Origin: Sanderia malayensis
Lineage: Eukaryota > Cnidaria > Scyphozoa > Semaeostomeae > Pelagiidae
DNA: 64,000 bases
Reading direction: 5' to 3'
NCBI GenBank assembly: GCA_013076295.1
Contig: RQOL01000718.1
Span: 5,368,081 to 5,432,080 of the forward strand
Part shown: in pieces, positions 29,068 to 63,361 of the stretch
How the letters are laid out: every line of letters begins with the position of its first letter
Numbering within the stretch: the stretch's first letter is position 1
Position numbers and translations under genes: made by a program
Notes under the pieces: model-generated
Told to the model about the DNA's origin: nothing
The model's database searches: none
Seen by the model: only the letters and a program-made list of their open reading frames with translations

Positions 29068-29437
29068 CTATACCTAAATACTATACCAACAAACTATACC
29101 AGTAGTATATGTATGCTAACGAGCAGCCGCTTTTTTTAATGTTTAAGGAAAGGGCAAAGATCGCGCAGGTTGTTGGTTAAATGTTTAAGAAGCGACCGGC
29201 GGATGAAAATGGATGGGTTGATTTGGATTGTAAAAAAAGGTTGAAAAAGTTAAATGAAAAAAAAAAGGTCGGAAGGGTGAACGGTTTGTTAAATGTTTAA
29301 AGAAAGGATTGTGGATTAAAATGGATAGTGAATTTTAGATTGATGTAAAGAAAAAATTGAATTAAAATAAAATAAATGAAATGTTTTGGATGATATAAGC
29401 AGACGCGAGTTAAAATAAAATTAAAATGTGAGAAATC
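29063..29437. other. Left edge of the viral element, non-coding
   Basis: Purine-rich sequence with repeated TTAAATGTTTAA words (near 29175 and 29288). No inverted copy of this stretch was found at the right side. A TATA-like ATATAAGC lies near 29393, ahead of the first small gene. Confidence 0.4.
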
Positions 29438-29647
29438 ATGAATGGAACAAAGTATGATTGTGGTGTAGAAAAGTTGATGGATGTAATAGAATATCATCAC
29501 GGTGTATTGTTTATGATGACTTTGTTCACTTTATTGTTCATGTTTGTGTTTGGAGCGCATGGTTATTTTGTTTTAGCAAGATCTTGGGCGGAATTGAATG
29601 AGCGTTATTGGGAAGAAAGAGAACGATTAGATGCACATGAAATTTGA
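29438..29647 (+). CDS. Small predicted membrane protein
   Basis: 69 codons with one clear transmembrane stretch (VLFMMTLFTLLFMFVFGAHG) near residues 24-43, then a charged helical tail (SWAELNERYWEERERL). I see no named family. It is intact and lies first in the plus arm behind a TATA-like box, so it is probably a viral accessory protein acting in a membrane. Confidence 0.5.
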   Translation: MNGTKYDCGVEKLMDVIEYHHGVLFMMTLFTLLFMFVFGAHGYFVLARSWAELNERYWEERERLDAHEI

Positions 29648-29663
29648 ATTGTAAAGTGTTAGG

Positions 29664-30116
29664 ATGGAGGAATTAAGTGCAAGTGAATGTGTTGAAGGAG
29701 TAAGGGGCTTCGAGGAAGACGAAATTGATCCAGCAGAATGTGCATGGATGGATTTCAAGTATTGGAAAAAATGAGGATTGAAATGAACGAAATACGGATG
29801 GAGAAGAAAAAAGATAAAAGAGAGAAATTGCCAGCTGAGAGAATTTAGAAATGAAAATGAAAAAAAGCAAAGAAAAGAAATATGTAAAAGGGAGAAAAAA
29901 AGAGAAGAGAGTTAGTCAGATACGATGGAAATTGAGGAGAGCATACGAGATATGAATGTGAAGTTAGCCAAGTTGAAATGGTGACGGGAGATAGAAAATG
30001 TGAAGGTTACGTATTTTGAAGGAGATGGAGAAAAGTTGAGTGAAATAGAAGATGAAATTGCAAAGCTGGAGTGTCTGAGAGAAAAGCGATTACAAGAAGT
30101 AATGAAAGAAGAATGA
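29664..30116 (+). pseudogene. Coiled-coil viral ORFs, broken
   Basis: Three small frames follow one another: 29664-29774 (acidic), 29771-29848 (overlapping ATGA, Lys/Glu-rich) and 29925-30116. The last carries an in-frame TGA at 29996-29998 and is otherwise a coiled-coil (KLSEIEDEIAKLECLREKRL). They may be one decayed gene or separate small genes. No homologue is recognised. Confidence 0.35.
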
Positions 30117-30136
30117 TTGATTGCTGGACAGGTGAA

Positions 30137-30168
30137 TGATTGACAGTTAGATTTACTTGTGTATATAA
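30137..30168 (+). promoter_or_regulatory. TGATTGACAG site and TATA box
   Basis: TGATTGACAG at 30137-30146 is followed 15 bp later by TATATAA at 30162-30168. It precedes the coiled-coil gene whose ATG is at 30199. The same pairing precedes minus-arm genes. Confidence 0.6.
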
Positions 30169-30198
30169 GGAACAGGGAAGGTGTATGTATTATTTGAA

Positions 30199-30479
30199 AT
30201 GGAAGGAGAGGGAGAAAGTAATCTAAAATTGAGAAACTATGGGAATTACAAAGAGAAAATAATGCACTGTTGAAGAAACAAATAAAAAACGCGTTGTTGA
30301 TGAAAAAATTATCCAAAGTGGATGCTGATTGTGCAGCGATAGTAGAAAAAAACGCATTGGAAATTGATTTATTGTATGCGAGTGTAATATCCAAAGACTT
30401 GCATACGGAAGTGGAGGAATTTGTGGAAAAAGTGACTGAGATAAATGATGATTGTGTTGAAAAAGGGAAAGATGTTTGA
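30199..30479 (+). pseudogene. Coiled-coil accessory protein, one frameshift
   Basis: The ATG at 30199 lies 31 bases after a TATA box. After seven codons a one-base shift is needed to reach the long helical frame (LWELQRENNALLKKQIKNAL ... EEFVEKVTEINDDCVEKG). The predicted product is a long leucine-zipper-like helix of unknown function. Its end overlaps the start of the next gene. Confidence 0.4.
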
Positions 30480-31266
30480 AGAGGTTACAGAGATGATGTT
30501 GAGGGTCGAAGAAACGGCGGGGTTCGAAGATGCAAGATTGTTAAAAGGAGAATTTAGTAAATGGTATAAAGTATATATAAAGATGATAAAGATGCTTGAA
30601 GATGATATTGATGATCTGTTTGAAGAATTGACAACGAAAATGGATGGGGTGTATAAATCATTGCCGCACATTAGAAATAGTGGTGGGGGAGAATGTTGGA
30701 GACAAGTATGGTGGTTGATTACGGTGTGGGATTTTGTCACACCGATTTTGACGTGGGAGAAAATATTGGAGTTGGTGAGAAAGATAGGACGAGATGATGT
30801 TGCTCATATCATAAATGAATGTGTGAAGAAAGAAGAAGGGATGATGTCGTTTTCCTACTGGTTCCGCATATACCTCCTATATACCTCGTTGATAATGTGT
30901 TGGGGAGACCGTGATGTGGATAAAGTTAAATTATTTGCGAAAAAGATGATGGGAGAAGAATTTGTTGAAGAGTTTGGAATGGGAGTTGACATGTATTTGC
31001 AACTCTTGGAGAAACAGAATGAAGGAAAAGATGGTGGAGTAAAATGTTCTAACATGATGGTCGATGTGATCGATAGTTGGATGAGGAAGAAAAAAGACGA
31101 AGCAAGAGTGAGCTCTATAATGGAGATGTTAAGACAAATGGGAGAAGAAGAGGGACTAGAAAAATTATTTTGTAGTTACATTTTGATATCATTAACATGT
31201 ATTCGATTTCGCGAGATAAGATATTGGAACAATGTTACGAGCACAAAGCTTAATAGTGATAGATGA
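30445..31266 (+). CDS. Accessory protein with death-fold-like segments (tentative)
   Basis: 273 codons, intact; a later Met at 30472 would also fit, since the first codons overlap the previous gene. The protein is all-helical. Residues about 100-125 read TWEKILELVRKIGRDDVAHI, like the last helices of death-effector-type domains. Near residues 210-245, VIDSWMRKKKDEARVSSIME has the Trp, spacing and helix order of the second half of a death domain. A related protein lies at 56272-57036. The next gene downstream is a Bcl-2 homologue, overlapping by 35 bases. The domain reading is by eye and could be wrong; a plain helical viral protein is the alternative. Confidence 0.45.
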   Translation: MMIVLKKGKMFEEVTEMMLRVEETAGFEDARLLKGEFSKWYKVYIKMIKMLEDDIDDLFEELTTKMDGVYKSLPHIRNSGGGECWRQVWWLITVWDFVTPILTWEKILELVRKIGRDDVAHIINECVKKEEGMMSFSYWFRIYLLYTSLIMCWGDRDVDKVKLFAKKMMGEEFVEEFGMGVDMYLQLLEKQNEGKDGGVKCSNMMVDVIDSWMRKKKDEARVSSIMEMLRQMGEEEGLEKLFCSYILISLTCIRFREIRYWNNVTSTKLNSDR

Positions 31267-31687
31267 GGTAATTGCATGTAAAATAAATGAAATGAAAGTA
31301 GAAGAATTAGATCGGAAAACTAAAGTGTTATTGAGATTAGTTGATGAAATGAAAGAGAAAAACGAACAATTTGTAAGATCAATGTATAAAAATTTGGATG
31401 ATAGGAGAATGATAGATAAGAAATGGATTAGGGAAATTATAGCTGAAATAAATGTTGATGGAACAAATTGGGGAAGAGTGGTTGCTATTTTTATGTTGTA
31501 TTCTATAATAGTAGAGGAAAAGAAGGAAAAGTCGAAAATGGCGAGAGAATGTTTGATCGAATTTATGCGAACAGTAGAACAAGATTGGGAACAGTTTATG
31601 AATTTATTTGCAAAAGATGAAGGATGGGGTGTAATGAAAGTTGTGGAAAATATAATCGAGTTTTTATTTAAAAAAAGGATAAAATAA
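31232..31687 (+). CDS. Bcl-2 family homologue (viral Bcl-2)
   Basis: 151 codons, intact. Residues 76-87 read DGTNWGRVVAIF, a clear BH1 motif with the NWGR signature that contacts BH3 ligands. Residues 119-127 read DEGWGVMKV, fitting BH2. Residues 32-47 (VLLRLVDEMKEKNEQF) lie where a BH3-type helix is expected, and the spacing between the three matches multi-BH Bcl-2 proteins. The C-terminus is short and basic with only a weak hydrophobic helix, so membrane anchoring is uncertain. Animal DNA viruses commonly carry such proteins to restrain mitochondrial apoptosis by binding pro-apoptotic BH3 proteins; that role is inferred here. It overlaps the preceding gene, as in compact viral genomes. Confidence 0.8.
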   Translation: MLRAQSLIVIDEVIACKINEMKVEELDRKTKVLLRLVDEMKEKNEQFVRSMYKNLDDRRMIDKKWIREIIAEINVDGTNWGRVVAIFMLYSIIVEEKKEKSKMARECLIEFMRTVEQDWEQFMNLFAKDEGWGVMKVVENIIEFLFKKRIK

Positions 31688-31748
31688 AATAATATTTAAT
31701 CGTTGGAAAAAGTAGGAGTCAGCATTATGTTGAAAGAAGCAAATAAAG

Positions 31749-32060
31749 ATGGTAGTAGAATATATGTATGATTTTATGTGCTCAGCCACAAGTAATGAGG
31801 CAATTTATAAGTTATATGAATACTTGAAGAAATTGCCAGAAGCAGATATTGTGAAACAGTTGTTGTATGTGGGTTGCAAAATTGGGATGGATGAAGTCTT
31901 GATAAAATCAAGAGTGTGTGTAAGAACGGAGGGAGATGTGGGAAAGAAGGAATTGGAATGGTTGCAATATGTAAAAGAATTTGAGGGAGGGAGATTGGAA
32001 AAGATGAAAAAAGTGATATTTGAAAGTCCCATAGCGAAAACAGATAAAGATGAAGAATAG
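31749..32060 (+). CDS. Hypothetical viral protein
   Basis: 103 codons, intact, helical, with a basic-acidic C-terminus. It lies 61 bases after the Bcl-2-like gene. No motif was recognised. Confidence 0.45.
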   Translation: MVVEYMYDFMCSATSNEAIYKLYEYLKKLPEADIVKQLLYVGCKIGMDEVLIKSRVCVRTEGDVGKKELEWLQYVKEFEGGRLEKMKKVIFESPIAKTDKDEE

Positions 32061-32080
32061 GTTTCTGTGGTTACTCTGAT

Positions 32081-32544: not shown

Positions 32545-32548
32545 GTAA

Positions 32549-34084
32549 ATGGAAGGAAATGAGAACAGACCTTTGTTAACACAACATAAAGAGAATGAAG
32601 TAGAAAACGGAAGGAAAGATGGGGAGGTAGGAATTAATAATAAACATGTATTGATTCCATTACGAGATTACAAAAAATTGCAAGAAATTAAAGCATTAGA
32701 TGTCCCGAATAATTATGAACAAAAAATTAAAGAGTTACGCGAGAGAGCGTTAACAGTGGAGAACCCAGTGGAAAGAGTTGCGTTGTTAAATAAAGCAAAT
32801 CAATTAGATGAAGTGTTAAAATCAGTGTATGTAGAATCAGGGTTGGAAACACAAAATTCAGGAAGGCAAAAGAATGAAATGCTTGACACAAATGTGCAAA
32901 GTCAAAGAATTGAAGAATTAAATCAACAGATAAAACAAATAAGGAACAATAAGAACATTTTGGCGGGGGAAAAAGGAGACAAAATTAAAAGGCTTATTCA
33001 ACAAGTGCAATTATTAAGAAATGTGTTCCAAGAAAAGAAAGAAAGATGTTTGAAAGAAATATTGAATGGGGATGATGTGACAGATGTAAATGTAAAGGTA
33101 GTAAATCAACTAAAACCTCACGGTTTACAATTTGTGAAAGCGTTGAGACAAACTAAAGATATAAAGTTTGATAAAGAAGATAATACGCTTCATATAGGAG
33201 ATGAATTTATTCCGGATGTCGGAAAAACGGAAAAATTTGTGGAATATATTAATAACCCGCACAAATTTATGAATATTCCAGTTGGTTTGATTTCGGTAGC
33301 TAAAAAATTAGTAGCGGAGGGAATGAATATAAATGTATTACCTCATGAATTACAAAGAAGAATTGCAATAGAAAGTAAAAAACCATCGTCAGCTCGCATT
33401 GCGAGACATGCATCAAGATTGGCGCGATTTTATTCATCAAAACGAAGGTCAGAAGGAGCTAGACGAAAGGAAAAAGAAACGCCATCATCAATTTGAAGTT
33501 CGCAACGGTTAGCAAAATTAGAGAGAATTAATACAGCAAGCCGGAATTTAGAAGGTGATAGTGATTCAGAGGGTCCTACCCATTCACCTATTGCAACGCG
33601 TACAAGAGCAAATCAACGTTTAAAGAGAAGGTTAGATAAAGATTTGGAAGGTCTAGGTTATAGTAATATTTCAAAAATGGTAGAATGGCAAGTGGAGCAA
33701 TCACTGAAAAAAATATTAATGAGAGGAAGGTACCAACCATCATCAGCGTATTCAGATGATTCGGTCTATGAGGATGAAGAGAACGATAGGAGAGATAGAG
33801 AGAATTCTCGTCTTTCGCGAATAGTAGCAGTAAAACGTCCGAGACAAATGGAGAGGGAGGTGTTGTACGCGCCACCGACAAAAGTGAGAGTGGATGAAAA
33901 TGGAATTGCACAGAAAGTAGCCAAAGAGTTGAGTAAAACATACAAGAAGAAACAAGGAAAAAGAAAAAACTTACATGGGACAGTTCCAGTGAGGAAAATA
34001 CGTCAGGTAGTGAAAGTGAATCGGAAACAGAGTCGAGTGAGGATGACAAAAGTTTGTGTTTTTGAAAAAAAGCACTTAAATTGA
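32549..34084 (+). pseudogene. Conserved Polinton-type protein upstream of integrase, in-frame TGA
   Basis: 512 codons in one frame with a single TGA at 33494-33496. The N-terminal 200 residues are charged and coiled-coil rich. Residues about 185-270 resemble a segment I associate with Polinton/adintovirus proteins of unknown function (LKPHGLQFVKALRQ, then a short beta region VEYINNPHKFMNIPVGL). The C-terminal third is Arg/Lys/Ser-rich and probably disordered. A 39-codon Lys-rich frame (34084-34203) overlaps the stop by ATG/TGA and may be its frameshifted end. Confidence 0.55.
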
Positions 34085-34195
34085 TGTTAAAAGCGGAGAA
34101 GAAAGGTGGATTGAGGAAGTATAAGAAAGCTCAGGAGAAAATGATTGCAGACATTGAACGATTATTTAATGAGTATAAAATAGCAGAGGAAAAAA

Positions 34196-35413
34196 ATGAA
34201 TAAAATTAATGAGCAGAGAATCGTAAATGAAAAATTATCTGAATTATATAATACCCCGAGTTTTCCTGGTTCATTTTCTGGCTTCAATAAGTTTTATACG
34301 TATGCAAAGAAGGAAATACCGAAATTAACAAGAACGCAGGTAATAGAATGGTGAAAGTCGAATATCACACATGGAGATTATAAACCAATAAAGAAGCAGT
34401 TTGTGCACCCACCAATAAAATCAGGTCGACAGGATTATTGCTGGGAAATTGATTTAATGGATGTTCAAAGCGATTATATATTTCATCCTGACTTTAACAA
34501 AGGAATTAAATATCTATTTTGTTGTGTAGATCAATTTGATAAATATGCATGGGTAAGACCGATGGTGAATAAGTCCGGTCCATCTAGTGTGTTAGCTATG
34601 CAAAGTATATTTGATTCAACAGAACGTTGCCCCAAGTTGATACGTGCGGATAGAGGGTCGGAATTTATTACTGCATCCTTTAAAACATTAATGACAAAGA
34701 ACAATGTGAAATTAATATTTTCGAATGATGATGCAAAATGTGCTATAGTGGAAAGATATAATAGAACGTTGAAGTTGAAACTAGTGCGCTATATGCAAGC
34801 GAAGAATTCTAAGAATTATTTGGATGTGTTGGATGAAATAGTAGAAAGTGTGAATAATTCCTACCATGGAATAATAGGAATGGCGCCTAATGAAGTAAAT
34901 GTAAATAATTTTGCAGAAGTAAGGCAGAAGTTACAAAAATACTGGAAACAACAAGAGGACAAAATTCCAGAGTCGCGTAAACCGAGAAATGCAGAAGAAG
35001 TGAAGAGAGGGAAAAAGAGAAAAATAACGTCGAAATATAAAAAAGGGGCATATGTACGAATTGCGCAAGCAAAAAAGTGTTTAAAAGAGGTTTCCATAAA
35101 CAATGGACGGATGAAATATTTATCATAGATAAAGTTGATTTGACATATACACCATTTGCATATTCATTGAATGATTTAGGTGGGTTACCAGTAGACGGAA
35201 AATTTTTTTATGGATCAATTACAAGAAGTAGTATTTCCGGAAATTGTAAAAATAGAGGACATAGTTAAAAGAGAAAAAGACTGGTCATTAATATCAACCC
35301 CGATATATTGGAAAGCTGTATGGGTGTTAACAAAAGATATACATCATTCAAAAGTGACTAGATTGAACATGTTAAAAAATAGTGATTTTATATCAAAAAA
35401 CGTTTTTAGATAG
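34196..35413 (+). pseudogene. Retroviral-type integrase of the Polinton-like virus
   Basis: The start ATG at 34196 is supported by a normal N-terminal region (FYTYAKKEIPKLTRTQVIEW). TGA at 34352-34354 interrupts it. The catalytic core is intact from 34403: YCWEIDLMDV (Asp), LIRADRGSEFI (Asp) and CAIVERYNRTLK (Glu). After about 35060 the C-terminal SH3/chromodomain-like region is reached only by a frame change near an A-run (HKQWTDEIFIIDK, FAYSLNDLGG), then another in a T-run near 35205 (DQLQEVVFPEIVKIE). The enzyme would insert viral DNA ends with a short target duplication. This copy is inactive. Confidence 0.88.
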
Positions 35414-35497
35414 TTTAAAGGAAGAGAATAGGATAAATGAGAAAGAAAGGAGAGAAAATGATGAGGTAGGACGTGATAGAGATGATATCGATAAAGA

Positions 35498-37280
35498 ATG
35501 ACAAGTAAGCCACAAAAAATAGTTGCCATTTCGTCAGCAGCTGCATCAGCGAAGGATAAAAATTTCAAATTTCGCGTGACATTAAATAAAAAACTATCAT
35601 TGGATGCAACAAAAGATTGGAAAATATGTTGTATTAAATGTATATTGCCAGGATATGAACAAGTGGACTATGCGCGACATATATGGGTCCAAAGAATAAG
35701 TTTACCATTTCAATCAACAAGTAATGTGTTTAAGAATAATCTTAATGTGGATGTACTTAAAAATAAGCATAAGTATAATTTGGTATTTAATACGGATGGG
35801 TCAGGAAACGGTTGGATTGGGAATCAATTGCCGCGTATCCATCTAGAAAGAGATAAAGCATTACAATGGAATAATGATGGAAAAAATTGGTCATTTGCCG
35901 ATCTAAATACGTTTTTAAATAGACCGATAAATATTGATTTTGATTTTGTCAGTTGGAAAGATGGAAAAGGTGTATGGGAACAAGAATCCATAATATTTAT
36001 CAAAACCATAACGGGTTCCCCTGATATTTTTGATTTGGGATTTAAAGGAATGAACATTCAAAATGAAATGGGGTTTAATTCGAAGCAACAATTTATGACA
36101 TGTAGAATGAATAGAATGTTGGTGGAACTATTGGGAATGGATAATTGGACGTCAGACTATTTTCCGAAGTGATTCAGGAATACCATGACAAATTTGTTTC
36201 TATCTATGGAAATACACCACATGATTTTCTAAAGTATATAACGCAACATGCACCAAATACACGATATGCATATTATGTCTTACATCGGAATTATGTAAAG
36301 GGATCGGATATAAACTTCGTTAACGATTATCTAGATATCTTGTTTTGGAAAAATTTGAAACATAATGAAAATAGTATAGATCTGTATAATGAAGGATATC
36401 CAGCCCCAGCATATAAAGGATGTTGACGTGGAATTCCATTTTCGGTCGCATCGCGTTTATTTAATAAACATGCAGAACCATTTTCATTAAATTGTGATTT
36501 AATTACATACAATTATGCAGCTGGTATATCAGCTCGATCATTGGCAAATATATTTATCAAATTTAAAGCGAATAATAAAACGACGTATAAAAATCAACTA
36601 TTTGAGTTTAAGCAGTTAGCGTTCTCACTAGTTCAACAACGAGAATTTCAAACGTTTTGGTTGGGAATAACTCCAAATCGAGCAGATGAACAGGAGGATG
36701 ATTCAAAGAAGATAATTATTGCACACTGTCGCAGAAAGTTAGATGGGACAAGTATTATTTGTCTATATATTACTAGTGAAGTATAATGTTTAAGCGAAGG
36801 TTGATTCAAGTAATAAATAAGCAAATTAAATTGTGTAAGAAGAATGATGAGGTGATGTTTACACATAACTTCAATGGAAAATTGAAAGTCGCTGTAGAAA
36901 AAATATATTTTTCACGTGACTGCTTTAATAGATTGTTGGATATTTCAAGCAAGGAATTAGTGACACGAAATTTAATACATTTTCCTTGGGAATGGAGTGA
37001 TTGTTTGATTAACGGAAAACAAGAAGTGAATTTAGTATCATTGTTAACGAATATTCATTTTAACCATTGTGATTATGTACATAAATTTGGAGATCAAAAA
37101 AGTGTTTATATATATCAACCGACGCATTTAGATTTTAAAGAGTGTAATTATGTCAATGAACTTAAATGTACGATATATTTAAGAGATATTGCTAATAATA
37201 TTATATTTCAACCTAATTGTTTTGCTGTAGAACTTATATTTGCTGATAATACGAGTACATTTGTCGATATGTTTATTTGA
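35498..37280 (+). pseudogene. Capsid-associated protein A, broken
   Basis: Three frames form one apparent gene of about 590 codons: 35498-36172, then 36145-36786 with an in-frame TGA at 36424-36426, then 36786-37280 through a TAATG overlap. The N-terminal pattern DATKDWKICCIKCILPGY matches the start of Polinton/adintovirus minor capsid proteins (W followed by a hydrophobic beta strand). The C-terminal block (YVNELKCTIYLRDIANNII) corresponds to the C-terminal beta domain of the next gene. The two are likely divergent paralogues. The role in virion assembly is inferred from position and pattern. Confidence 0.5.
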
Positions 37281-37292
37281 ACGTTTGTAACA

Positions 37293-38549
37293 ATGCCATT
37301 AGCTAGTGAAAATACAGTTATTTTACAAGGATATTATGACAGTGAAAATCCAAATTCCAATTTCAAATTTAATGAACATAGTCAAACTGCTAATAATGAA
37401 TTAAACATTGATGTGTATGATGGTTGGCAAGTTGCTTTGAAAAAAATTGTATATGATTTTAAAGATCAACAAGAGTTGAAAAGTCTGCGTACTCCAATTG
37501 GTGAAAATTATAATGTAGAAGATTGGATAGTAGAAATATATCTAGGTGCATGGAAGAGTTACAACAATGATCGGTCAGCGAACTTAATACGGGAGCAGGT
37601 TATGTTTGAAACAAGAAATGCAAATGATAGTAGTTATGTAAATCATTATTATAATGCGGTTACTAATATAGATGTGAAAAAGCATGTGAAATATGAAATG
37701 AATTTTGCGAAACCAATGGCACCGATAATGCGTATTGATATAGCAAAAAATTTACAAAAGAGATTTGGGGAAGGAAAAACAATTACAATTCAGAATTTAC
37801 TGAATGAAATCCGTGATTACAATGAATATAAAACAACCAAAGAAATGTCAACCGGAAAGACATACACATTTACAGAAGCTATAAAATTTGCATTTAAACA
37901 ATTTCCAGATGTGCAATCCAAAAAATTATTAAGCACATATTTTCCGGATGACCTATGGAAACAATCGTTTGCAATAGACTGGAAACTTGTGAGGAATACG
38001 AAAGAGGGAACAGAACGGGTGGAAATTAGTAATATCCCACCATATTGTATACACATCGCGATTGGGTCACAGATGCTTCCGTTCTGCGGATTTGATGTGT
38101 TAGATGTATCATTGGATGAACAGAAGGCTATAATTTGGAAACGATATGAACAAGCCTGCTTTAATAAAGGAGCTGTTGTAGGCAAAGTAGATCAATTATT
38201 TTGGTTCCCGGAAGGCTGTTCCACAAAGACAGGAGAACCCTATTCAAAAGTAGTAAAGACAATGTCAAAAAATGATAGTGTAATACATGCCGACCAATAT
38301 TTTATATATAGTAATAATGTACAAGGACAATTTGTAGGAGATGAATCGATTCCATTGTTAGATATAATCTTAGGGATTCGTTTAACTCGAAACATTCGTC
38401 AGGATTATGTATCATATGAACCAGAAACATTACAATTTTGCGATTTAAAAGATCAGCAGGTAACTCGTTTTCATTGTACAATATTGGATTCGAAAGGGCG
38501 GAAAATTGTTGTAAAAGCACATGTGGATGTACTATTTCGCTTAATATAA
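37293..38549 (+). CDS. Capsid-associated protein B (minor capsid/penton-like)
   Basis: 418 codons, intact, starting 13 bases after the preceding gene. It has VYDGWQVALKKIVYDF near residue 48, HADQYFIYSNNVQGQFVGD near residue 345, and a C-terminal beta-rich tail (RFHCTILDSKGRKIVVKAHV). These are the landmarks I know from the conserved capsid companion of Polintons and adintoviruses. No signal peptide or membrane segment. It is one of the few undamaged structural genes. Confidence 0.6.
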   Translation: MPLASENTVILQGYYDSENPNSNFKFNEHSQTANNELNIDVYDGWQVALKKIVYDFKDQQELKSLRTPIGENYNVEDWIVEIYLGAWKSYNNDRSANLIREQVMFETRNANDSSYVNHYYNAVTNIDVKKHVKYEMNFAKPMAPIMRIDIAKNLQKRFGEGKTITIQNLLNEIRDYNEYKTTKEMSTGKTYTFTEAIKFAFKQFPDVQSKKLLSTYFPDDLWKQSFAIDWKLVRNTKEGTERVEISNIPPYCIHIAIGSQMLPFCGFDVLDVSLDEQKAIIWKRYEQACFNKGAVVGKVDQLFWFPEGCSTKTGEPYSKVVKTMSKNDSVIHADQYFIYSNNVQGQFVGDESIPLLDIILGIRLTRNIRQDYVSYEPETLQFCDLKDQQVTRFHCTILDSKGRKIVVKAHVDVLFRLI

Positions 38550-38626
38550 CTTATAAAAAGAAAAAAAACATTAATAAATGAATATAAATGGTATTGATAC
38601 AAGAAATCATGAATATTACATAAAAA

Positions 38627-40801: not shown

Positions 40802-40893
40802 TCACATTGGATTATATTCCATAAAGAAAAAAGAAAAAAAAAAGTTTATAATTATATTGGGATAAAAAATAGGAACCCATAGGTTAGCTAATC

Positions 40894-42643: not shown

Positions 42644-42689
42644 TGGTTTCCAGGCCTTTGGAGCTGGTCTGTATTTTGTGTATTTTTTT

Positions 42690-54536: not shown

Positions 54537-54613
54537 TTTGAATATAATATCACTAGATACTAAATATATACGTAAAAAATAATGAAAAATTCATTTTCAT
54601 CACAATTCGTGTT

Positions 54614-55150: not shown

Positions 55151-55199
55151 CCTATATCCTATTTGTGATTGACATTTCGCATGTTGTTTCTGTCAATCA
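55151..55199 (-). promoter_or_regulatory. Paired TGATTGACA sites and TATA-like box
   Basis: CTGTCAATCA at 55190-55199 and TGATTGACAT at 55166-55175 point towards each other, 24 bp start to start. A TATA-like GATATAGG lies at 55152-55159, ahead of the gene at 55115. The same two-site layout with the same 24-bp step occurs at 58165-58198. Confidence 0.55.
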
Positions 55200-55453
55200 T
55201 TCTTTCTTTTCCTTTTTTTCGTCGACTCATTCAAAAATTGCATTAATTCATCCAATGTTTCTTCATCTACGTCACTATCCCGCTTTCGTTTCATTGGCTC
55301 TTTTTCAAACACATCTACTATGTCTTCTTCTACCACTTCCTCATCGAACATTTGATCAATTATCTCTCTATCTGGTACTATTTCTGCATATACGATCTCT
55401 TTCATCACAGACGTTACTTGCCTTCGTTCGACTTCTGAATACTTTCTATTCAA
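55193..55453 (-). CDS. Hypothetical acidic viral protein with basic C-terminus
   Basis: 86 codons, intact, highly charged (FDEEVVEEDIVDVFEKEPMK, then TKKRKRKND). It is probably disordered. Its stop codon lies inside the promoter of the next gene. No family is recognised. Confidence 0.4.
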   Translation of the reverse strand: MNRKYSEVERRQVTSVMKEIVYAEIVPDREIIDQMFDEEVVEEDIVDVFEKEPMKRKRDSDVDEETLDELMQFLNESTKKRKRKND

Positions 55454-55629
55454 AATGGCATTAATGTCCGTGATTTTTTTTTAATCAGGATTCTTGCTTC
55501 ATTTCATTTCCTACTCTCTCTACATCCTCCATTCTCATCATTTGATCGTTTGCAGCCCCGATACTTGCAGAACGAATCACTAATAATTCTATTAGAGCTT
55601 CTTTTAAGTGTTTATCTAACTTCTCTCAT

Positions 55630-56054
55630 CTATGTCCTCCTGTTCGTTTTGGCGTCTGTAAAATAGCGAACGTTGTTCATTTTTTGTAACAGTGCATTCG
55701 TTTCCACAATTTCAAAATCTGTATTTTGAAAAAAGAACTTCAATTTGCTCAATTGCGCATTGGTCGGAAAAAACATCTTTGTACAAAATAAACTTGTATC
55801 ATCCGCATCATTCTCTATCAGTTTTTTCTTCATATTTTTTTCATACTGTTCTAACATTGTCTTTACGTCCATCACCTTCTCCTTATTTTTAATATGTCCT
55901 GAATTTCTTCAAACTCTCGTTCATACATACACATTCCAAACTTGCTCATAAAACTCTGAAATCCTAGTTGATATTTCAAACATGATTCACTAACTTGAAT
56001 TTTCACTTTACGCTTACTTTCCCCATTGATAATATCCATCGCCATTTCATCCAT
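55630..56054 (-). pseudogene. NTDF-family protein A, one frameshift
   Basis: Frames 56054-55872 and 55875-55630 overlap by a few bases and read as one protein of about 140 codons. The second half contains FFPTNAQLSKLKFFFQNTDF. It aligns with YPNVSQVEKMKHFYVNTDFD of the larger protein at 59154-59915, including the preceding DIL...NKEK helix. The function is unknown; a family limited to this virus group is likely. Confidence 0.5.
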
Positions 56055-56271
56055 TCATACGTAATATCAAACAAATTGTTTGTTTTTTCTGTTGAAAACA
56101 TATTCACATTCATCATCCCTTCCGTTTCAAAGGAACGTGTGTCCTGGGTTAATTTTTTTATCACCGGCATGGTCATCTTCTGTAAATATGTTTTATCATT
56201 TCTTTTTTTTCATTACCTTTATATCGGTTGACGCTTGATAAATACACATTTTTATTTTTTTATCATTTTCA

Positions 56272-57036
56272 TCAATACTTCAAATATCTCATTATTTCAC
56301 AACTCATACTCTTTCCATCTGGTTTACATTTTAATCCACAAAGCTCTATCTTGTTTATTAACTCTTTTACTGTCGCCTCCTTTTTCTTTTTCAACAACCA
56401 TTTAGTAACTATATCAAACATTACCGATTCCGTCAATCCCAACATGCATCTACTTTTAAATGATATCATATCATTACACCCTACACTTCCATCTTCCTCA
56501 TCATGTAACGTATAGAAAAAGCGCATTTGTTCATCATATGGGTTCAAAAAATATCCTTCACTATTACAACATCAAAAATCGAAAAACCAGAAATAAAATG
56601 GTTTTCTCATCATATATGTCTCTCTAAATGTTTTCAATGACATCGCTATTATTAAAGGCGATACTACTTCTCTTATCGTACTTGCCAATGCTTTTTGCTA
56701 CATTACTGATAAGAGTTCAATGTCCTCATATTCCAGTCTTTCATTGTGGACTCGATTCCATTCTCTTGTGATCATGTGGATGATCATCACAACATCTCTG
56801 CCACTTCTTTCTACTATATCGTCCAACGATGTTGATGTTTCTTTCCACGCGATTGCATCATACAGTGCTGTAATATCATATTTACCGACATGCACTATGG
56901 ACATCACTTGTTTGTACCATAGATACAATTCACCATCATAACTTCCTTCCACTTCTCGCCAAAACACAGGTTCATTTATTTCGATCGCTTCTTGAACAGG
57001 TGAACACCCTAACGGATTTGCTGGGCAATCATCCAT
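56272..57036 (-). pseudogene. Second death-fold-like accessory protein, two in-frame stops
   Basis: The frame from 57036 is open apart from TAG at 56698-56700 and a TGA near 56570, about 254 codons, similar in length to the protein at 30445. LDDIVERSGRDVVMIIHMIT corresponds to LELVRKIGRDDVAHIINECV there. The C-terminal VTKWLLKKKKEATVKELINK corresponds to its VIDSWMRKKKDEARVSSIME. The last segment has the Trp and ATV-x-x-L pattern of death-domain helices. Paralogy of the two viral proteins is better supported than the domain name. Confidence 0.4.
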
Positions 57037-57128
57037 CCTTCTTTCTTCGTTTCTTCTACTACACTACTTCTCTCTTATATGACAATTCCTTTTATACCTT
57101 TCTGCAACCCTCATACATTGTTGTACTC

Positions 57129-57528
57129 ATATATCCGCACGTCTGCACCATATATTTACATACACACTATCACGTGCATACTCTGGATCCACTAACAATG
57201 CTATATATAACTCACCCTTGTTATCAAGGTGCATCTGTGTACCCCTTATCAACCACATGCTATTTTCCAACCCAACTTTTTCCTCTTCTCTTGTTGATGG
57301 TCTCTATTTTATCCTGCTTAACCTTCCCATTCCATTATTCTGCTGCCATAATTCTGGACATTCGCTCTCAACCCAACGAACACCGTCATATAATGCAAAT
57401 GTATCCTTTGCAGACGATGGAAGACTCCCGAGCATACATCGAAATACCTCTACCATCATTGATAGTTTCTGTTTATTTATTTTCGCGCTATCATAACGCA
57501 GAAATGCATAAATAGGTACACCATTCAT
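57129..57528 (-). pseudogene. Hypothetical viral protein, in-frame TAG
   Basis: From ATG 57528 the frame is open to a TAG at 57304-57306. It then continues (ENSMWLIRGTQMHLDNKGEL) to about 57129. The second half resembles the C-terminal half of the next gene outward (57679-58109) in strand pattern and spacing. The function is unknown. Confidence 0.35.
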
Positions 57529-57591
57529 TTTGTCTTCTCTTTATATTTCATATATATATACCAAATAATTATATTAACATCTTACACATTA

Positions 57592-57617
57592 TATTTATAC
57601 ACATAATCTATCAATCA
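57592..57617 (-). promoter_or_regulatory. TGATTGATAG site and TATA box
   Basis: On the minus strand TGATTGATAG (57617-57608) is followed by TATAAATA (57599-57592), ahead of the gene at 57528. Confidence 0.45.
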
Positions 57618-57678
57618 TTTATCGTTCTGTTTCTTGATTGGTTCTAGCCTTTAACTACAAATCAACGTTAGCGTCCTT

Positions 57679-58109
57679 TCATGCTTTCGTGCACAGGGCT
57701 ACAAAGAGCACATTTCCTTTCACAAACGTAGTATTTAACAACATGCCTTGTATAACTCCAGCAGGCATTATTTGATCACCTTTCAGAAAATACGTTCCAC
57801 TTTCCGCAGTCGCAAACCATTCGTCTGGTGTGTTAGGCCTCATTAATGTCACGCTCCCAACACCGTCTTTCCTCGGATCATCAACTTTCCACGCTTCAGG
57901 CGCATATAAATTTACATCTTTACCTGATTGATCATACACTGAAATTCTCCGAAGATTTTCGGTCTCCCTCTTTCAAACGTATAATGCAGAGTTTCCAACG
58001 ACCTTATCAGATCACGCCCAGATATTTCATATCTAGCGTAATAGATGACAGCATACAATAATTCTCCAGTGAGTTTCTCTCCTTTCAAACAACACCCGTT
58101 TGCAGGCAT
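57679..58109 (-). pseudogene. Hypothetical viral protein, one frameshift
   Basis: Frames 58109-57912 and 57939-57679 overlap and read as one protein of about 143 codons. The N-terminal half is helical (LLYAVIYYARYEISGRDL). The C-terminal half is beta-rich (DEWFATAESGTYFLKGDQIM). Weak similarity to the neighbour at 57129-57528 suggests duplication. No known family. Confidence 0.4.
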
Positions 58110-58151
58110 GGTGATCTGATTCTATTCTTTTTCTTTTTATACTCTAGCTTC

Positions 58152-58198
58152 TTTATACTGTACGTGATTGACATATTATTCGTTTTGACTATCAATCA
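58152..58198 (-). promoter_or_regulatory. Paired TALE-like sites and TATA box
   Basis: CTATCAATCA at 58189-58198 and TGATTGACAT at 58165-58174, 24 bp start to start. On the minus strand TATAAAG (58157-58151) follows. It precedes the gene at 58109. Confidence 0.5.
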
Positions 58199-58723
58199 CT
58201 TACTTATTTTCCCTCCCACCCACCTTTTTTGATACTCTCCACATACACTAATAAACTCTTTTTGATCATGCCAAATTTTCACTTCTTCTGACAGGAAAAA
58301 ATATATTAATTTCGCTACTCGTCCATTGCCGTCTGCGAAAGGGTGAATCCACAAAAATTTCGTTATAAACTCAAGCGGTCGTATCATTTTCTGTTGTCCT
58401 ACGAGACTTTGCAATTCTAACTCAATTTGATCTGGATGACAGTACACTATCTCTTCCCCTTCAAATACAGCACATCGTTCATTTCGTGACACCTCCGAAC
58501 TCGTTTCATTTCCCATCACATACGCATGCAATTCTTTTATCATATCTACATCTATCCATTTTTTATACTCCAAACAGGTTTTTAAAAAAATGAACGCGCT
58601 TTTCAAATCTGTACTTTCATCTTCTGTTCTGCATATACTTTTCAACATTTCTTCTTCTCCGTCAAGCAATTCCATAGAGTTCAACACAATAACACAACAT
58701 TTGATACTTTTTTCACTAACCAC
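58196..58723 (-). CDS. Fic-domain protein
   Basis: 175 codons, intact. Residues 127-138 read HPFADGNGRVAK, the Fic active-site motif with the catalytic His127, Asp131, the GNG anion hole and Arg135. The final position, usually Arg, is Lys138. Upstream, VFEGEEIVYCHPDQIELELQ fits the Fic flap and following helix. No (S/T)xxxE(G/N) inhibitory motif is evident in the protein. Fic enzymes transfer AMP or other nucleotide parts to Ser, Thr or Tyr of target proteins. In a virus this could modify host signalling proteins, but no target can be read from sequence. A TATA-like TATATAAG lies about 25 bases upstream. Confidence 0.85.
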   Translation of the reverse strand: MVSEKSIKCCVIVLNSMELLDGEEEMLKSICRTEDESTDLKSAFIFLKTCLEYKKWIDVDMIKELHAYVMGNETSSEVSRNERCAVFEGEEIVYCHPDQIELELQSLVGQQKMIRPLEFITKFLWIHPFADGNGRVAKLIYFFLSEEVKIWHDQKEFISVCGEYQKRWVGGKISK

Positions 58724-58765
58724 ATTTCATATCATATACTTATATACATTTTTTTCTCAAATTAT

Positions 58766-59153: not shown

Positions 59154-59915
59154 CTACCTCATTGAGGGTGGAGGAGCTGGCGGGTCATTCGGAAAAACGA
59201 TATCACTTATACTAAACTCTTCGGAGACCCCTGTTGTGGGTATCGGTTCATTCATCGGTAATATGTCATCGAATATATTCGATATAACATTGTCGGCTTC
59301 ATTCACATCATCTGACACCAGAACTTCATCCACTACAAACGAGTTCGGGTTGACTTCTGTTTCAAAGTTCTTCGTTGATTTCGCGGGAACTCTCGGTACA
59401 CTTCTCGAAACAGGTTTTATCTTCGCAATATTACTAAGTGTTTTAAATTTACACTTTGCATGTTCGGCTGGTCTCCTTCGTGGATCCTTTGGTTTTTCAT
59501 TAATCGCCTTTACTTCCTTTGTTTCACGTGGTTTTTCTACTTTTACTCGTTTACTTACACGATCATTATCTACCGATTTTATCTCACTCTTCTTCTTAAT
59601 TTTTCCTACTACAGCTTGCTCTATTTTACCATCATCTACTTTATGGCTGATGACATCAAAGTCCGTATTTACATAAAAATGCTTCATTTTTTCTACCTGA
59701 CTAACATTCGGATACATAATTCTAATAAGACACATTTGCATTTCTGTAAATCCCTTCTTTTTCATACACGCTAATAATTCGTTACGATAAAATCTCATAA
59801 GTTGTTCCTCATCCCGTTTTTCCTTATTATAAAAGCTTAGAATGTTCATTATATCTCTTACTTTTAACACATATGTTAAATTAACAAATTGATCTATGAA
59901 AACAGTAAATCCCAT
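59154..59915 (-). CDS. NTDF-family protein B
   Basis: 253 codons, intact. The first 90 residues are helical and match the protein at 55630-56054 (YPNVSQVEKMKHFYVNTDFD). The rest is a Lys/Arg/Pro-rich linker followed by an acidic tail ending in a Pro-rich run, probably disordered. The function is unknown. It is the outermost gene of the main minus arm before the repeat region. Confidence 0.5.
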   Translation of the reverse strand: MGFTVFIDQFVNLTYVLKVRDIMNILSFYNKEKRDEEQLMRFYRNELLACMKKKGFTEMQMCLIRIMYPNVSQVEKMKHFYVNTDFDVISHKVDDGKIEQAVVGKIKKKSEIKSVDNDRVSKRVKVEKPRETKEVKAINEKPKDPRRRPAEHAKCKFKTLSNIAKIKPVSRSVPRVPAKSTKNFETEVNPNSFVVDEVLVSDDVNEADNVISNIFDDILPMNEPIPTTGVSEEFSISDIVFPNDPPAPPPSMR

Positions 59916-60214
59916 TTTAACTCTGAGCTTTGAAACTGACTTCTTAATTTTAACTGGAAATGATAGTTCACCTTAGATAATTTCTGCAATCACATTTGTC
60001 AATTGATACGGTGCCACTATGCAGATAGTCTTTCGTTCATCTGTTGAATATTCTGCGAAGTTCACCAGGCCTTCATCTTGAAAGCTTCGGCTGTCTTCAC
60101 CAAATTTCTTCATCAACGGCATCATACGTCCTCTTTCCTTCGCATGCGAAGTTTATCTGATCGGTTCACGCTCATACTCGCTTATTTATGCGCTTTTTAC
60201 AATTTTTGTCTCCA

Positions 60215-60712
60215 TTGTCCGACATGGTGTGATTTCAAAGTCCACATCTCCTTTGTCCGACGTGGTATGATTTCAAAGTCCACATCTCCTTTGTCTGACA
60301 TGGTATGATTTCAAATTCACTCTCCTTTGTCCGACATGGTACGATTTCAAAGTTCACATCTCCTTTGTCTGACATGGTATGAATTCAAAGTTCACATCTC
60401 CTTTGTCCGACATGGTATGATTTCAAAGTCCACATCTCCTTTGTCCGACATGGTATGATTTCAAAGTCCACATCTCCTTTGTCTGACATGGTATGATTTC
60501 AAAGTTCACATCTCCTTTGTCCGACATGGTATGATTTCAAAGTCCACATCTCCTTTGTCTGACATGGTATGATTTTAAAGTTTACATCTCCTTTGTCCGA
60601 CATGGTATGATTTCAAAGTCCACATCTCCTTTGTCTGACATGGTATGATTTCAAAGTTCACATCTCCTTTGTCCGACATGGTATGATTTCAAAGTTCACA
60701 TCTCCTTTGTCC
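60215..60712. repeat. 38-bp satellite, about 13 copies
   Basis: The unit reads approximately TCCGACATGGTATGATTTCA then AAGTCCACATCTCCTTTG. It repeats head to tail with TCCGA/TCTGA and CCACAT/TCACAT variants. It is non-coding and lies outside the last minus-arm gene. Confidence 0.95.
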
Positions 60713-61236
60713 TCCTTCCAGATTATTGACATTTTGACCAGGTCATCGTGTCCTTATTTGTAACATCACCCACTCATATTTCGATCTGAATTTTCACGTG
60801 TTGAACTGAAGCTCATCATTCGATCTGAATTTTCAAATGTGGAAGTTAGAAAGTGTATACCTGTCCTTTGTCCGCCTTCCAGATTATTGACATTTTGACC
60901 AGGTCATGTCCTTATTTGTAACATCACACGCTCATCGTACGGTCTGAAATCACCCGCTCATTATTCGATCCGAATTTTCACGTGTTGAAGTGAAGCTCAT
61001 CATTCGATCTGAATTTTCAAATGTTGAAGTTAGAAAGTGTATACCTGTCCTTTGTCCGCCTTCCAGATTATTGACATTTTGACCAGGTCATGTCCTTATT
61101 TGTAACATCACGCGCTCATCATACGGTCTGAAATCACCCGCTCATTATTCGATCCGAATTTTTCACGTGCTGAAGTGAAGCTCATCATTCGATCTGAATT
61201 TTTAAATGTTGAAGTTAGAAAGTGCATAGATACATT
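60704..61236. repeat. Three tandem copies of a 161-184-bp unit
   Basis: Copies start at 60704, 60865 and 61049, each with CCTTTGTCCNCCTTCCAG. Inside are ATTATTGACATTTTGACCAG and repeated CATTCGATCTGAATTTT words. The first bases resemble the 38-bp unit, so the two arrays probably share an origin. Confidence 0.9.
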
Positions 61237-61253
61237 TTCTAACTTCAACATTT
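61204..61253. repeat. 18-bp perfect hairpin at the end of the repeat region
   Basis: AAATGTTGAAGTTAGAAA at 61204-61221, a 14-base loop, and the exact complement at 61236-61253. The left arm is the end of the third 180-bp unit. Confidence 0.9.
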
Positions 61254-61268
61254 TACTCACTTCCATTT

Positions 61269-61688
61269 TTGCTATCGACGAGTGAACATTTCATTTTAAA
61301 CATCATGCACTGCTACGTATATCACAAAAGAAGGGCTGTTCCCAAGCCATGCTATTTGCTCTGCATGTTTCAAGCGGCAGAGCAAGGTTGTTCAGCAGCA
61401 GACTTATCACAAACATTTGAAATCGATGAAATGTGGAAAGACGAACAAATCAAACAAGAATTTCGTAAGATATTCGATGATTTACAAACAAAGATAACAA
61501 CTGATGGAGAAGCGAAACTGAACGTTCCAACACCAGCCGATAGAAAATTCATCAGCGCTGCTCAACGATTTCCCGAGCAGAAGGCCACAATTCAATGGAT
61601 TAACGCGCAAGGCAATTCGGATGAGGACGAAACAACGATTAATGACCCCTCAATTTATTCGGATATGCTTGACAATCTACATTTTTAA
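61269..61688 (+). CDS. Hypothetical protein
   Basis: 139 codons, intact, plus strand. A later Met (61368 or 61431) may be the real start. The C-terminal part is acidic (NSDEDETTINDPSIYSDML). No domain is recognised, and it may be a viral gene lying outside the repeat region. Confidence 0.35.
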   Translation: MLSTSEHFILNIMHCYVYHKRRAVPKPCYLLCMFQAAEQGCSAADLSQTFEIDEMWKDEQIKQEFRKIFDDLQTKITTDGEAKLNVPTPADRKFISAAQRFPEQKATIQWINAQGNSDEDETTINDPSIYSDMLDNLHF

Positions 61689-61770
61689 TTTACTTTATTA
61701 TACATAATACATTTTATACTTTTAATTTACTTCTATACTACATTTTATACATTTAATAATATATTGAATT

Positions 61771-62627
61771 TTACTTATTTCGAACACATTGTCCTATACA
61801 CTCTACGTACATTCGGTCTCCTGCAATGAACTCTGGTTGCTGTTTCAAGCAAGTCAATGAAAACATTAAAGGTAAGCCTGAAGGAACATTTCTATCTCCT
61901 ATCGGTTTATCAAACGATGCACTCCCACGACTTGTTCTGAACGAATCTCTTACATCTTTTGATCTATCATGTTGATTTATTATCCTAAACTTGACAGATT
62001 TAATCATAGGCCATTCTACGATATCATCATATTCTCCTTTATATACAACAATAAATAAACTGATGTACTTATTCTTTCCCAAACCATCCCTGTTAAGATA
62101 CACCCTCAGTCCTAATTTATAACCGTATTTATCTGTTAAAAACTTAGGACTAAACAACGATGTACCGCATCTCATTGCATGTTTTTTCTTCTCTTCAAAA
62201 TTATCGATTCTCCAAATTAAATGCCCGTTTTCTGATACACTACTTTCTAATTTCTTCAGTCTTTCTTCATGTCTCTCCATGCGCGAATCTATTTCCGACT
62301 GCTGACCGCTTAACTCGTATACCATTTTGAAATCATGCTGAACTTCCCTATTTCTCACTCTTTCTCTTTCAATTTCTTCAACCCTCTTCGCCAATTTGTT
62401 CTGCTGATTCAATACTTCCTCTAATATCTCCTCGTCTCTTTTCTCCTCATGCTTTGTTTTTTTTCATCCGATCCGGTTTCTTTTCCAGCTATCTCTTCAT
62501 ACGTATTCCCACTAGCTGCGAACCCGCTCAGTTCAACTTGTCGTTGCCATTCTAAATTTTTCATTTGCCATTCAATGTTTCTAACTTTATCCTCATGCGT
62601 TAAAACTAATAAGTCTTTAGTATCCAT
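61771..62627 (-). pseudogene. Coiled-coil plus TRAF-C/MATH protein, one frameshift
   Basis: The ATG at 62627 begins MDTKDLLVLTHEDKVRNIEW. An A-run near 62455 shifts the frame, and the coiled-coil continues (EEIERERVRNREVQHDFKM, then heptads to about 62230). The MATH domain follows: GHLIWRIDNFEEKK, then SPKFLTDKYGYKLGLRVYLN, then GLGKNKYISLFIVVYKGEYD and EWPM. This is the order of a TRAF C-terminal domain, which binds receptor and adaptor tails. No RING or TRAF-type zinc fingers are present. Such a protein could compete with host TRAFs; that is inference. It starts 15 bases after the next outer gene ends, a virus-like spacing. Confidence 0.8.
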
Positions 62628-62641
62628 TCTGTTTTATCTCA

Positions 62642-63361
62642 CTAAATCGACCAGTCTTCTCCCCGTCTATTAAAGACTTTTTGTATCTCTTTTGTAAATA
62701 ATCTCTCATATTTACTCATACGGATATACTCCATTTCATCAATCTCCTTTTCTATGTCCAATTTCTTATCTCCCCCATACCCAGTTACGTTCATCTGTTT
62801 TATAAATTCCAACTGATTCCGATATTTTAGAAACACAAGTTTTACATCACATTCGAAAATATCAGCCCAATCCATTCTAAATAACTTATCATACTCTTTA
62901 TCTGCCTCTACATCTACTTCATCATTCTTCTCCATCCTCTCTTCACCCGACCCACTTCTCTCCTTAACACCATCCATATCTAACACTGGCACTTTTCCCC
63001 TCCTTTTTATCTCCTTTTGTATCTCCTTTTTTGTTAATACTTCTGAATCTCTCAGTTTTATATTTTCCACGTGTCTAATTTCACTCGTTCTCATCTCCAC
63101 CAAAGTAGTGTATCTCTTAATCCATTTTTTCTCAGCCTTCACCAGCACACAAAACACAAATACTCCAAAGACAACCGTCAACTCTAAAATCCACACCCTT
63201 ATTATCAACAATATATGATTTACCTTATCGCGAAAAGAGCCAATCAAATTGCAGGAAAAGGTGAAACGGGTCACGTGAAGAGCGAATACCCTGTTCGAAA
63301 ATGGAGCTCGGGACGCAAATTTGGAACGCCAGCGTAAACTGTAGTTTTTTCGTGATAGCAC
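62642..63361 (-). CDS. Hypothetical protein with one membrane segment
   Basis: 239 codons. The listed ATG gives a basic leader before a hydrophobic stretch (ILELTVVFGVFVFCVLV) near residues 57-73. The remainder is charged and helical (EKEIDEMEYIRMSKYERLF). An internal start is possible. It is compactly arranged with the TRAF-like gene, on the same strand. No family is recognised. Confidence 0.45.
   Translation of the reverse strand: MLSRKNYSLRWRSKFASRAPFSNRVFALHVTRFTFSCNLIGSFRDKVNHILLIIRVWILELTVVFGVFVFCVLVKAEKKWIKRYTTLVEMRTSEIRHVENIKLRDSEVLTKKEIQKEIKRRGKVPVLDMDGVKERSGSGEERMEKNDEVDVEADKEYDKLFRMDWADIFECDVKLVFLKYRNQLEFIKQMNVTGYGGDKKLDIEKEIDEMEYIRMSKYERLFTKEIQKVFNRRGEDWSI

Follow-up and report, generated by a model that had tools for sequence, protein, structure and literature searches.

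A 64,000-nucleotide stretch of the genome of the scyphozoan Sanderia malayensis (GenBank assembly GCA_013076295.1, contig RQOL01000718.1, positions 5,368,081 to 5,432,080 of the forward strand; hereafter the window, whose coordinates are used throughout) contains a block from 29101 to ~63228 that is very probably one element, a defective provirus of the Polinton (Maverick) class belonging to a multicopy family. The provirus spans 34.1 kb, including a nested transposon of 2.9 kb. We favour, with considerable confidence, the reading that the family consists of capsid-coding, integrating viruses with cassettes of putative host-manipulation genes at their termini. The window forms part of contig C675 in a 918-contig, 184-Mb genome that holds many related copies.

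Boundaries of the element

The left end of the element is a terminal inverted repeat that starts at 29101 and recurs in inverted orientation at the right ends of copies elsewhere in the genome. A search of the window itself revealed no pair of terminal repeats, because the right repeat of this copy has been lost; position ~63228 is the end of the sequence common to other copies. In the related copy on contig C208, the left and right terminal repeats are 98% identical across 149 bp. The strand composition is polarised between ~29.1 and 63.2 kb, the left half being G-rich and the right half C-rich, which agrees with genes pointing inward from both ends. Two contigs, C289 and C741, are ~97–98% identical to the flanks of the element in the window, as if they represented the second haplotype or a duplication of the locus. 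Host repeats with terminal CATA arrays lie on either side of the block (28841–29086 and 63624–63996), recur at 17426 and partly at 4076, and could mislead boundary calls.

Core and accessory genes in related copies

Terminal inverted repeats together with a 6-bp target duplication are a criterion for Polintons. Five relatives with both terminal repeats were located in the genome, all five with perfect 6-bp target duplications (AACGTG, TTCGTC, TATACA, ACTGAT and AATATC, read by eye off the printed flanks). Four of them are facing repeat pairs from a terminal-repeat search with at least 40 matches (40 of 53 candidates scored), and the fifth came from a flank comparison of a more distant copy. 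The copies measure 31,726 bp (C208), 37,462 bp (C829), 24,317 bp (C303), 69,762 bp (C686) and 32,817 bp (C303:1627711-1660527); other insertions perhaps interrupt the C686 copy.

All five copies contain accessory genes between their repeats. In three of the five, representing three lineages whose penton genes are 95, 78 and 62% identical to that of the window, Bcl-2, Fic, TRAF and gene E accompany the family B DNA polymerase (PolB), capsid and penton genes. The C208 copy contains all eight genes searched (D, Bcl-2, penton, capsid, PolB, Fic, E and TRAF) in the order of the window. The same order is kept in C829 (penton 78%), with no D match. In the copy at C303:1627711-1660527 (penton 62%), PolB, capsid and penton are central, flanked by Fic, TRAF and E at one terminus and by Bcl-2 at the opposite one, an order that differs from that of the window. 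TRAF, E, PolB, capsid and Bcl-2 are present in the 24.3-kb C303 copy, and D, penton, capsid, PolB, Fic, E and two TRAFs in the 69.8-kb C686 copy. Because the repeats and the 6-bp duplications enclose both gene sets in five copies, core and accessory genes integrate as a single unit.

These copies bear on the idea of a composite locus, an ordinary 15–20 kb Polinton that later received insertions of host genes or transposons carrying Bcl-2, Fic and TRAF. One nested transposon is indeed present, other repeated elements occur in the genome, and numerous matches to Fic and TRAF are found apart from core matches. However, in five copies at different sites the repeats, with their 6-bp duplications intact, enclose both gene sets, and three lineages place Bcl-2 at the end opposite to Fic, TRAF and E. 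We consider a composite origin highly improbable.

A preliminary description of this DNA had placed a single Polinton/adintovirus-like virus at 29390–63361. The element is real, but it begins at 29101 rather than 29390 and its shared sequence stops at ~63228; nor is the block viral throughout, since 42173–45053 is a foreign nested transposon, the rest being one element. It had advised mapping the ends by comparing alleles or species; here they were mapped against other copies in the same genome. Relatives of 30–35 kb with the same accessory genes, which it had suggested looking for, are found in C208 (31.7 kb) and at C303:1627711-1660527 (32.8 kb). Separate insertions of core and accessory genes, which it had named as counter-evidence, are contradicted by the five paired-terminus copies, all of which enclose both.

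Individual genes are still open in other copies; in some, open frames of 474–488 amino acids (aa) for the capsid (57–99% identity to the window) and 422–425 aa for the penton (67–99%) are found. Such frames are as expected under continuing selection on virion genes in the replicating lineage, and they argue against a domesticated or purely transposon-like element, whose capsid genes would be remnants and whose accessory genes would benefit the host or promote amplification within the genome instead of infection. The high copy number in one genome is in favour of that alternative, as is a precedent in the consulted part of PMC6431247, the planarian Burro with MATH/TRAF-C, BIR and BCL2-like motifs. 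On balance, we regard domestication as improbable.

Core genes

The core genes of the provirus were assigned largely by comparison with two reference blocks, L014 (11.8 kb) and L009 (7.9 kb), from ten public contigs retrieved with an integrase alignment; a third block, L017, served in the capsid and penton comparisons as well. All three were judged Polinton-like from reading their open reading frames (ORFs). The ten contigs with Polinton-like integrases (L009–L018) are filed under bacterial genomes in a public species collection and are apparently eukaryotic or viral contamination.

An integrase of the retrovirus (rve) type, as expected of a Polinton, is recognised by Pfam (Table 1). The capsid was identified with hhalign, the window piece and two copies being aligned and compared with L009, L014 and L017 (E 1.5e-16, 381 columns), whose ORFs had been named by reading; the window piece by itself matches L009 at E 5e-6, computed on the small set of ten contigs. 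The protease scores above the PF00770 cut-off in two other copies (24.6 and 24.4 bits vs 21.3). For the polymerase, the match to L014 reaches E 2e-56 with a window piece, again on the ten-contig set, and E 4e-89 with the open frame of the copy on C713; it would be protein-primed. An N-terminal stretch of the polymerase aligns with the L014 polymerase over 264 columns (E 6e-9) and, judging by its sequence, may be OTU-like. Pfam returned no polymerase family for PolB, giving zinc fingers and chance-level matches only, and Protein Data Bank (PDB) searches with PolB gave two chance-level matches, a profile adding one ribosomal match (E 0.002) that was taken as chance. The small ORFs at 38624–39144 may be minor-capsid-like, judging by their position. 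The ORF at 35495–36783 was tried as a penton and rejected (hhalign E 0.42 with the C208 version).

No relative turned up in scans of viral contigs, whether the query was the penton, the capsid, the integrase, a PolB piece or the integrase alignment. The closest integrases outside the genome (P0001–P0003) are 59–61% identical to that of the window and lie on contigs of 1.8–7.1 kb. A precomputed Pfam list gives them the rve domain alone, with no chromodomain; in the window, the integrase frame is interrupted upstream of where that domain would lie. The capsid piece had no homologue at E ≤ 1e-3 in a general protein database of ~5.8 billion sequences (344 word-sharing candidates). PMC11071296 describes adintoviruses by a hexon recognisable to known members with BLASTp, an integrase bearing a C-terminal chromodomain and a PolB bearing an N-terminal OTU-like domain. 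The integrase and capsid results speak against placing the family in Adintoviridae sensu stricto rather than in a separate Polinton lineage. In favour of Adintoviridae are a similar gene set, an anti-apoptotic gene and an animal-type host, as given in the accessible part of PMC11071296; we hold this placement to be doubtful.

The complete Polinton hallmark set claimed in the preliminary description stands as gene content, but not as intact genes: capsid and TRAF are frameshifted, the polymerase is in pieces and the penton match is C-terminal only. In core searches of the kind it had proposed, capsid, PolB and ATPase pieces matched L009 or L014, and the capsid and PolB scans of viral contigs yielded no relative. 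Of its accessory genes, Bcl-2, Fic and TRAF-C were verified with Pfam, whereas the death-fold-like gene is not established (22.0 vs 22.6 bits for Death).

Accessory genes

The left accessory block comprises D and Bcl-2 and the right block E2, D2, G2, G1, Fic, E and TRAF, both pointing inward. The NWGR motif of the Bcl-2 gene is kept in 11 of the 11 Bcl-2 ORFs examined, one of them host-like; the window gene also matches PF01691 below cut-off (E 9e-4). For gene D, the Pfam Death model gives 16.7 bits in C208 and no match in a relative on C752. Since these scores, like that of the window, are below the cut-off, a firm death-domain call was rejected; there are weak indications that D and D2 may be death-fold adaptors. 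E and E2, G1 and G2 and, more weakly, D and D2 (D being at the left end) look like duplications internal to the element.

The strict Fic motif HPFxDGNGR is present in 18 of 24 Fic loci. In Fic proteins, (S/T)xxxE(G/N) is an inhibitory motif; none was seen by eye in the window ORF. A general protein search with the Fic protein gave 2 weak matches only. A second class of Fic gene, ~36–44% identical and with a 185-aa frame, occurs in other repeated units at three loci (L103, at C815:5594000-5603900, L104 and L105), adjoined by a small basic ORF similar, on inspection by eye, to those of the window element. This arrangement suggests that Fic is also carried by a second family of viruses.

In all four open element copies scanned, the TRAF ORFs (281–320 aa) match TRAF-C/MATH models alone, with no RING or zinc finger (Pfam, E ≤ 0.01); the coiled coil was identified by eye. 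TRAF1 is likewise a TRAF without RING. Because the protein combines a coiled coil and TRAF-C without RING, as in TRAF1, its build suggests a receptor decoy. In a tree, ten element TRAFs separate from four host-like TRAFs, defined as loci without core or accessory matches nearby, with support of 98/97. One element copy (L038, C686:5396821 and 5397746) has two tandem TRAF genes.

Genomic distribution

Matches in the genome at E ≤ 1e-3 number 88 for penton, 48 for Bcl-2, 110 for E, 26 for D, at least 143 for TRAF and at least 150 for Fic; there are 72 for capsid (E ≤ 1e-10) and at least 79 for PolB (E ≤ 1e-15), some of these matches being fragments of one gene. The candidates scored were 150 of 210 for Fic, 150 of 164 for TRAF, 126 of 162 for PolB and 40 of 53 for the terminal repeat. 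Clustering and proximity were based on 42 of the 88 penton, 42 of the 72 capsid, 60 of the 79 PolB, 46 of the 48 Bcl-2, 19 of the 26 D, 68 of the 110 E, 133 of the 150 Fic and 96 of the 143 TRAF matches, the others having been omitted by eye as weak or as extra fragments at a listed locus. When matches were chained at 16 kb, 42 of the 73 core-gene clusters contained accessory genes.

Measured between match starts, 27 of 46 Bcl-2 (expected ≤0.6), 27 of 96 TRAF (1.3), 30 of 133 Fic (1.8), 24 of 68 E (0.9) and 5 of 19 D matches (0.3) lie within 16 kb of a core gene. These values are ~16 to 43 times the genome-share expectation, for events that are non-independent, copies being related and haplotype duplicates counted apart. 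At ≥50% identity, the fractions are 11/17 for Bcl-2, 5/7 for D and 7/15 for E. The 16-kb measure undercounts TRAF, since in the layout of the window TRAF starts 15.8–16.2 kb from the PolB piece. Fic or E is found within 6 kb on the same strand at 69 of 96 TRAFs, so that the TRAF, Fic and E matches with no core gene nearby may be element ends or fragments.

Selection and weight of the evidence

The Bcl-2, TRAF-C and Fic genes look constrained between lineages. Against the lineage of the window, the ratio of non-synonymous to synonymous substitution rates (dN/dS) is 0.34–0.49 for Bcl-2 (9 pairs), 0.17–0.25 for Fic (7 pairs) and 0.20–0.26 for TRAF (8 pairs), with synonymous sites near saturation for the latter two.

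This saturation is one of several observations that weigh against a capsid-coding virus family with terminal cassettes. The ratio was not computable for six TRAF pairs with the copy on C45, and between close copies it ranges from 0.21 to 1.52, the top values resting on very few changes. Six of the 24 Fic loci are without the strict motif (three have a short ORF only, one no motif and two altered residues), and the TRAF tree drew a program warning on long host-like branches. By 16-kb chaining, 31 of the 73 core clusters have no accessory match; many TRAF, Fic and E matches have no neighbouring core gene, and at ≥50% identity just 4 of 20 TRAF and 22 of 63 Fic matches lie within 16 kb of the core. 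Among the matches listed (for Fic, 150 of 210 candidates scored), none to Fic, D or penton falls in the 24.3-kb copy, and the genome search gave no Bcl-2 match in the 69.8-kb copy. As for the virion and replication genes, the penton hhalign match to L009, L014 and L017 is partial (E 3.5e-6, probability 87.5, just 66 C-terminal columns), neither PolB nor capsid is named by Pfam, and the structure prediction for the capsid piece, in which a double jelly-roll fold would be expected of a Polinton, has a mean pLDDT (predicted local distance difference test) of 30. Finally, the window copy is a fossil, with stops or frame changes in the capsid, TRAF, integrase, protease, ATPase and polymerase genes, and of its two termini it keeps only the left one.

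Under our preferred reading of an integrating virus, particles would deliver linear DNA, the integrase would insert it, creating the 6-bp duplication, and the polymerase would replicate it by protein priming. The Bcl-2 homologue would block mitochondrial apoptosis, and the TRAF protein, with its coiled coil and receptor-binding TRAF-C, would interfere with TNF-receptor-type signalling as a dominant-negative decoy. The Fic protein may modify a host protein, AMPylation being the simplest possibility. The cassette as a whole would keep the infected cell alive and quiet. As a multicopy set defined by its termini, the family makes gene capture by an integrating animal-type DNA virus datable, comparable across lineages and testable. 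Its gene content suggests that this part of the Polintons has maintained, as a trait, control over the death of host cells and over TNF-receptor-type signalling. The status of animal Polintons as active viruses also becomes more directly testable, through selection on genes useful only in an infected cell.

Nested transposon and other features

The 2.9-kb transposon nested between protease and polymerase is foreign and no part of the virus; the C208 copy is without it. Among the listed matches to its repeats (at least 42 in the genome), 11 are at 100% identity, the window's own and 10 others. Long inverted repeats paired with a tyrosine recombinase seem an unusual combination. Another mobile element lies at 8079–12857, with 309-bp inverted repeats (99%) and an rva_4 integrase gene (E 3e-77); its 709-aa ORF has no Pfam match.

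Table 1. Features of the provirus in window coordinates. E-values of window pieces against L014 were computed on the small set of ten contigs.
Feature	Position	Strand	Evidence or remark
Left terminal inverted repeat	29101..29249	+	Starts 5'-AGTAGTATATGTATGC; same sequence inverted at right end of other copies
Small ORF, hydrophobic stretch (by eye)	29432..29644	+	No credible Pfam match
Gene D, death-fold-like, unproven	30445..31179	+	Pfam Death 22.0 bits vs cut-off 22.6
Bcl-2-like gene with NWGR (BH1) motif	31220..31687	+	PF00452 E 6e-10; BCL2L10 PDB match E 3e-5
Small ORF	31734..32060	+	ORF list
315-aa ORF	32549..33496	+	No credible Pfam match
195-aa ORF	33497..34084	+	Part 33677-34081 without credible Pfam match
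rve (retrovirus-type) integrase, in pieces	34184..35410	+	PF00665 E 1e-7 for 34457-35125
ORFs of structural region	35495..37280	+	ORF list
Penton-like protein, 422-aa open frame	37281..38549	+	hhalign to penton-like ORFs of L009, L014, L017
Small ORFs	38624..39144	+	ORF list
Major capsid protein, frameshifted	39378..40801	+	hhalign
Adenain-type cysteine protease, in pieces	40888..41538	+	L014 match E 2e-8 (window piece)
Nested host transposon, 442-bp inverted repeats, tyrosine-recombinase-like ORF	42173..45053		PF02899 below cut-off
Family B DNA polymerase, probably protein-primed type, N-terminal zinc fingers, in many pieces	45057..50471	-	Motifs and L014 match
ORFs common to C208	51224..52160	-	ORF list and C208 comparison
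Small ORFs	53133..53571	-	ORF list
Packaging ATPase, in two pieces	53717..54590	-	Walker-A piece PF04665 (Pox_A32) E 0.002, below cut-off; C-terminal piece vs L014 E 4e-20 (tblastn)
ORF common to C208	54617..54898	-	ORF list and C208 comparison
Gene E2, paralogue of E, in pieces	55196..56209	-	Window E vs C208 E2: 29% identity, E 5e-5
Gene D2, possible paralogue of D, in pieces	56275..57063	-	BLASTP E 4e-4 between C208 copies
Genes G2 and G1, mutual paralogues	57130..58121	-	BLASTP E 1e-6 between C208 copies
Fic protein, HPFADGNGR complete	58196..58726	-	PF02661 E 1e-12; FICD PDB match E 4e-6
Gene E	59154..60152	-	No credible Pfam match
38-bp (~13 copies) and 184-bp tandem repeats, between E and TRAF	60209..61228		Repeat scan
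TRAF gene, coiled coil and TRAF-C, frameshifted	61771..62633	-	PF21355 E 5e-30; TRAF1 PDB match E 3e-38
Terminal ORF, hydrophobic stretch (by eye)	62642..63228	-	63228 is the last base common to the C686 copy before the C686 right repeat

Comparison with known systems

In the parts of the sources available, Maverick-Polintons and adintoviruses are put at 15–20 kb (PMC10120064), polinton-like viruses at 14–40 kb (PMC12220804) and the phylum at below 50 kb (PMC11071308). Four forms of the family, the window copy included, measure 31–37 kb and another 24 kb, above the first range and below the last; at 34.1 kb, the element is longer than usual members, as had been noted from its sequence. It had also been thought possibly undescribed. 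This does not hold for anti-apoptotic genes, which the accessible text of Buck et al. 2024 (PMC11071296) already reports for adintoviruses, but no description of a Bcl-2/TRAF/Fic combination in a Polinton was found in the listed titles and abstract openings of the open-licence literature, where no paper linking Polintons to a TRAF domain or to a Fic domain was found either. TRAF plus Fic is apparently the new part.

With Polintons/Mavericks (class Polintoviricetes), the family shares an rve integrase, a PolB of protein-primed type, an adenain-type protease, a packaging ATPase, capsid and penton-like genes, and terminal inverted repeats with 6-bp target duplications (5/5 paired-terminus copies). 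It differs in its size of 24–37 kb (one copy 69.8 kb), against the 15–20 kb quoted in the source above, and in having an accessory block at each terminus, the pair carrying Bcl-2, TRAF and Fic. The integrase, PolB and adenovirus-like virion genes are shared with adintoviruses, as far as the accessible text of PMC11071296 goes. Besides the capsid and integrase differences set out above, TRAF is absent from that text. Burro, a giant Gypsy-like planarian element, is likewise a large mobile element with MATH/TRAF-C and BCL2-like domains, but it is a long terminal repeat (LTR) retrotransposon that encodes them, together with BIR, in a single polyprotein, and the part of PMC6431247 consulted makes no mention of Fic, DNA polymerase B or a capsid of the window type.

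A more far-reaching idea, to which we give little credence, is that inward-pointing terminal early cassettes, with Bcl-2 at the left and signalling decoys at the right, were ancestral to Polintons and adenoviruses; the E1B-19K/E4 layout would then predate adenoviruses, and the window family would have added Fic and TRAF, known in neither. In adenoviruses, the penton is followed by small basic proteins, hexon and protease, with PolB on the opposite strand; close to the left end is the Bcl-2-like E1B 19K, and an early region that reads leftward occupies the right end. We know of no TRAF or Fic in adenoviruses. The window element shares with them the gene order, the opposite-strand PolB, the left-end Bcl-2-like gene, with its PF01691 match below cut-off, and the leftward genes at the right end, and it differs in that it integrates, with an rve integrase and a Polinton-type ATPase.

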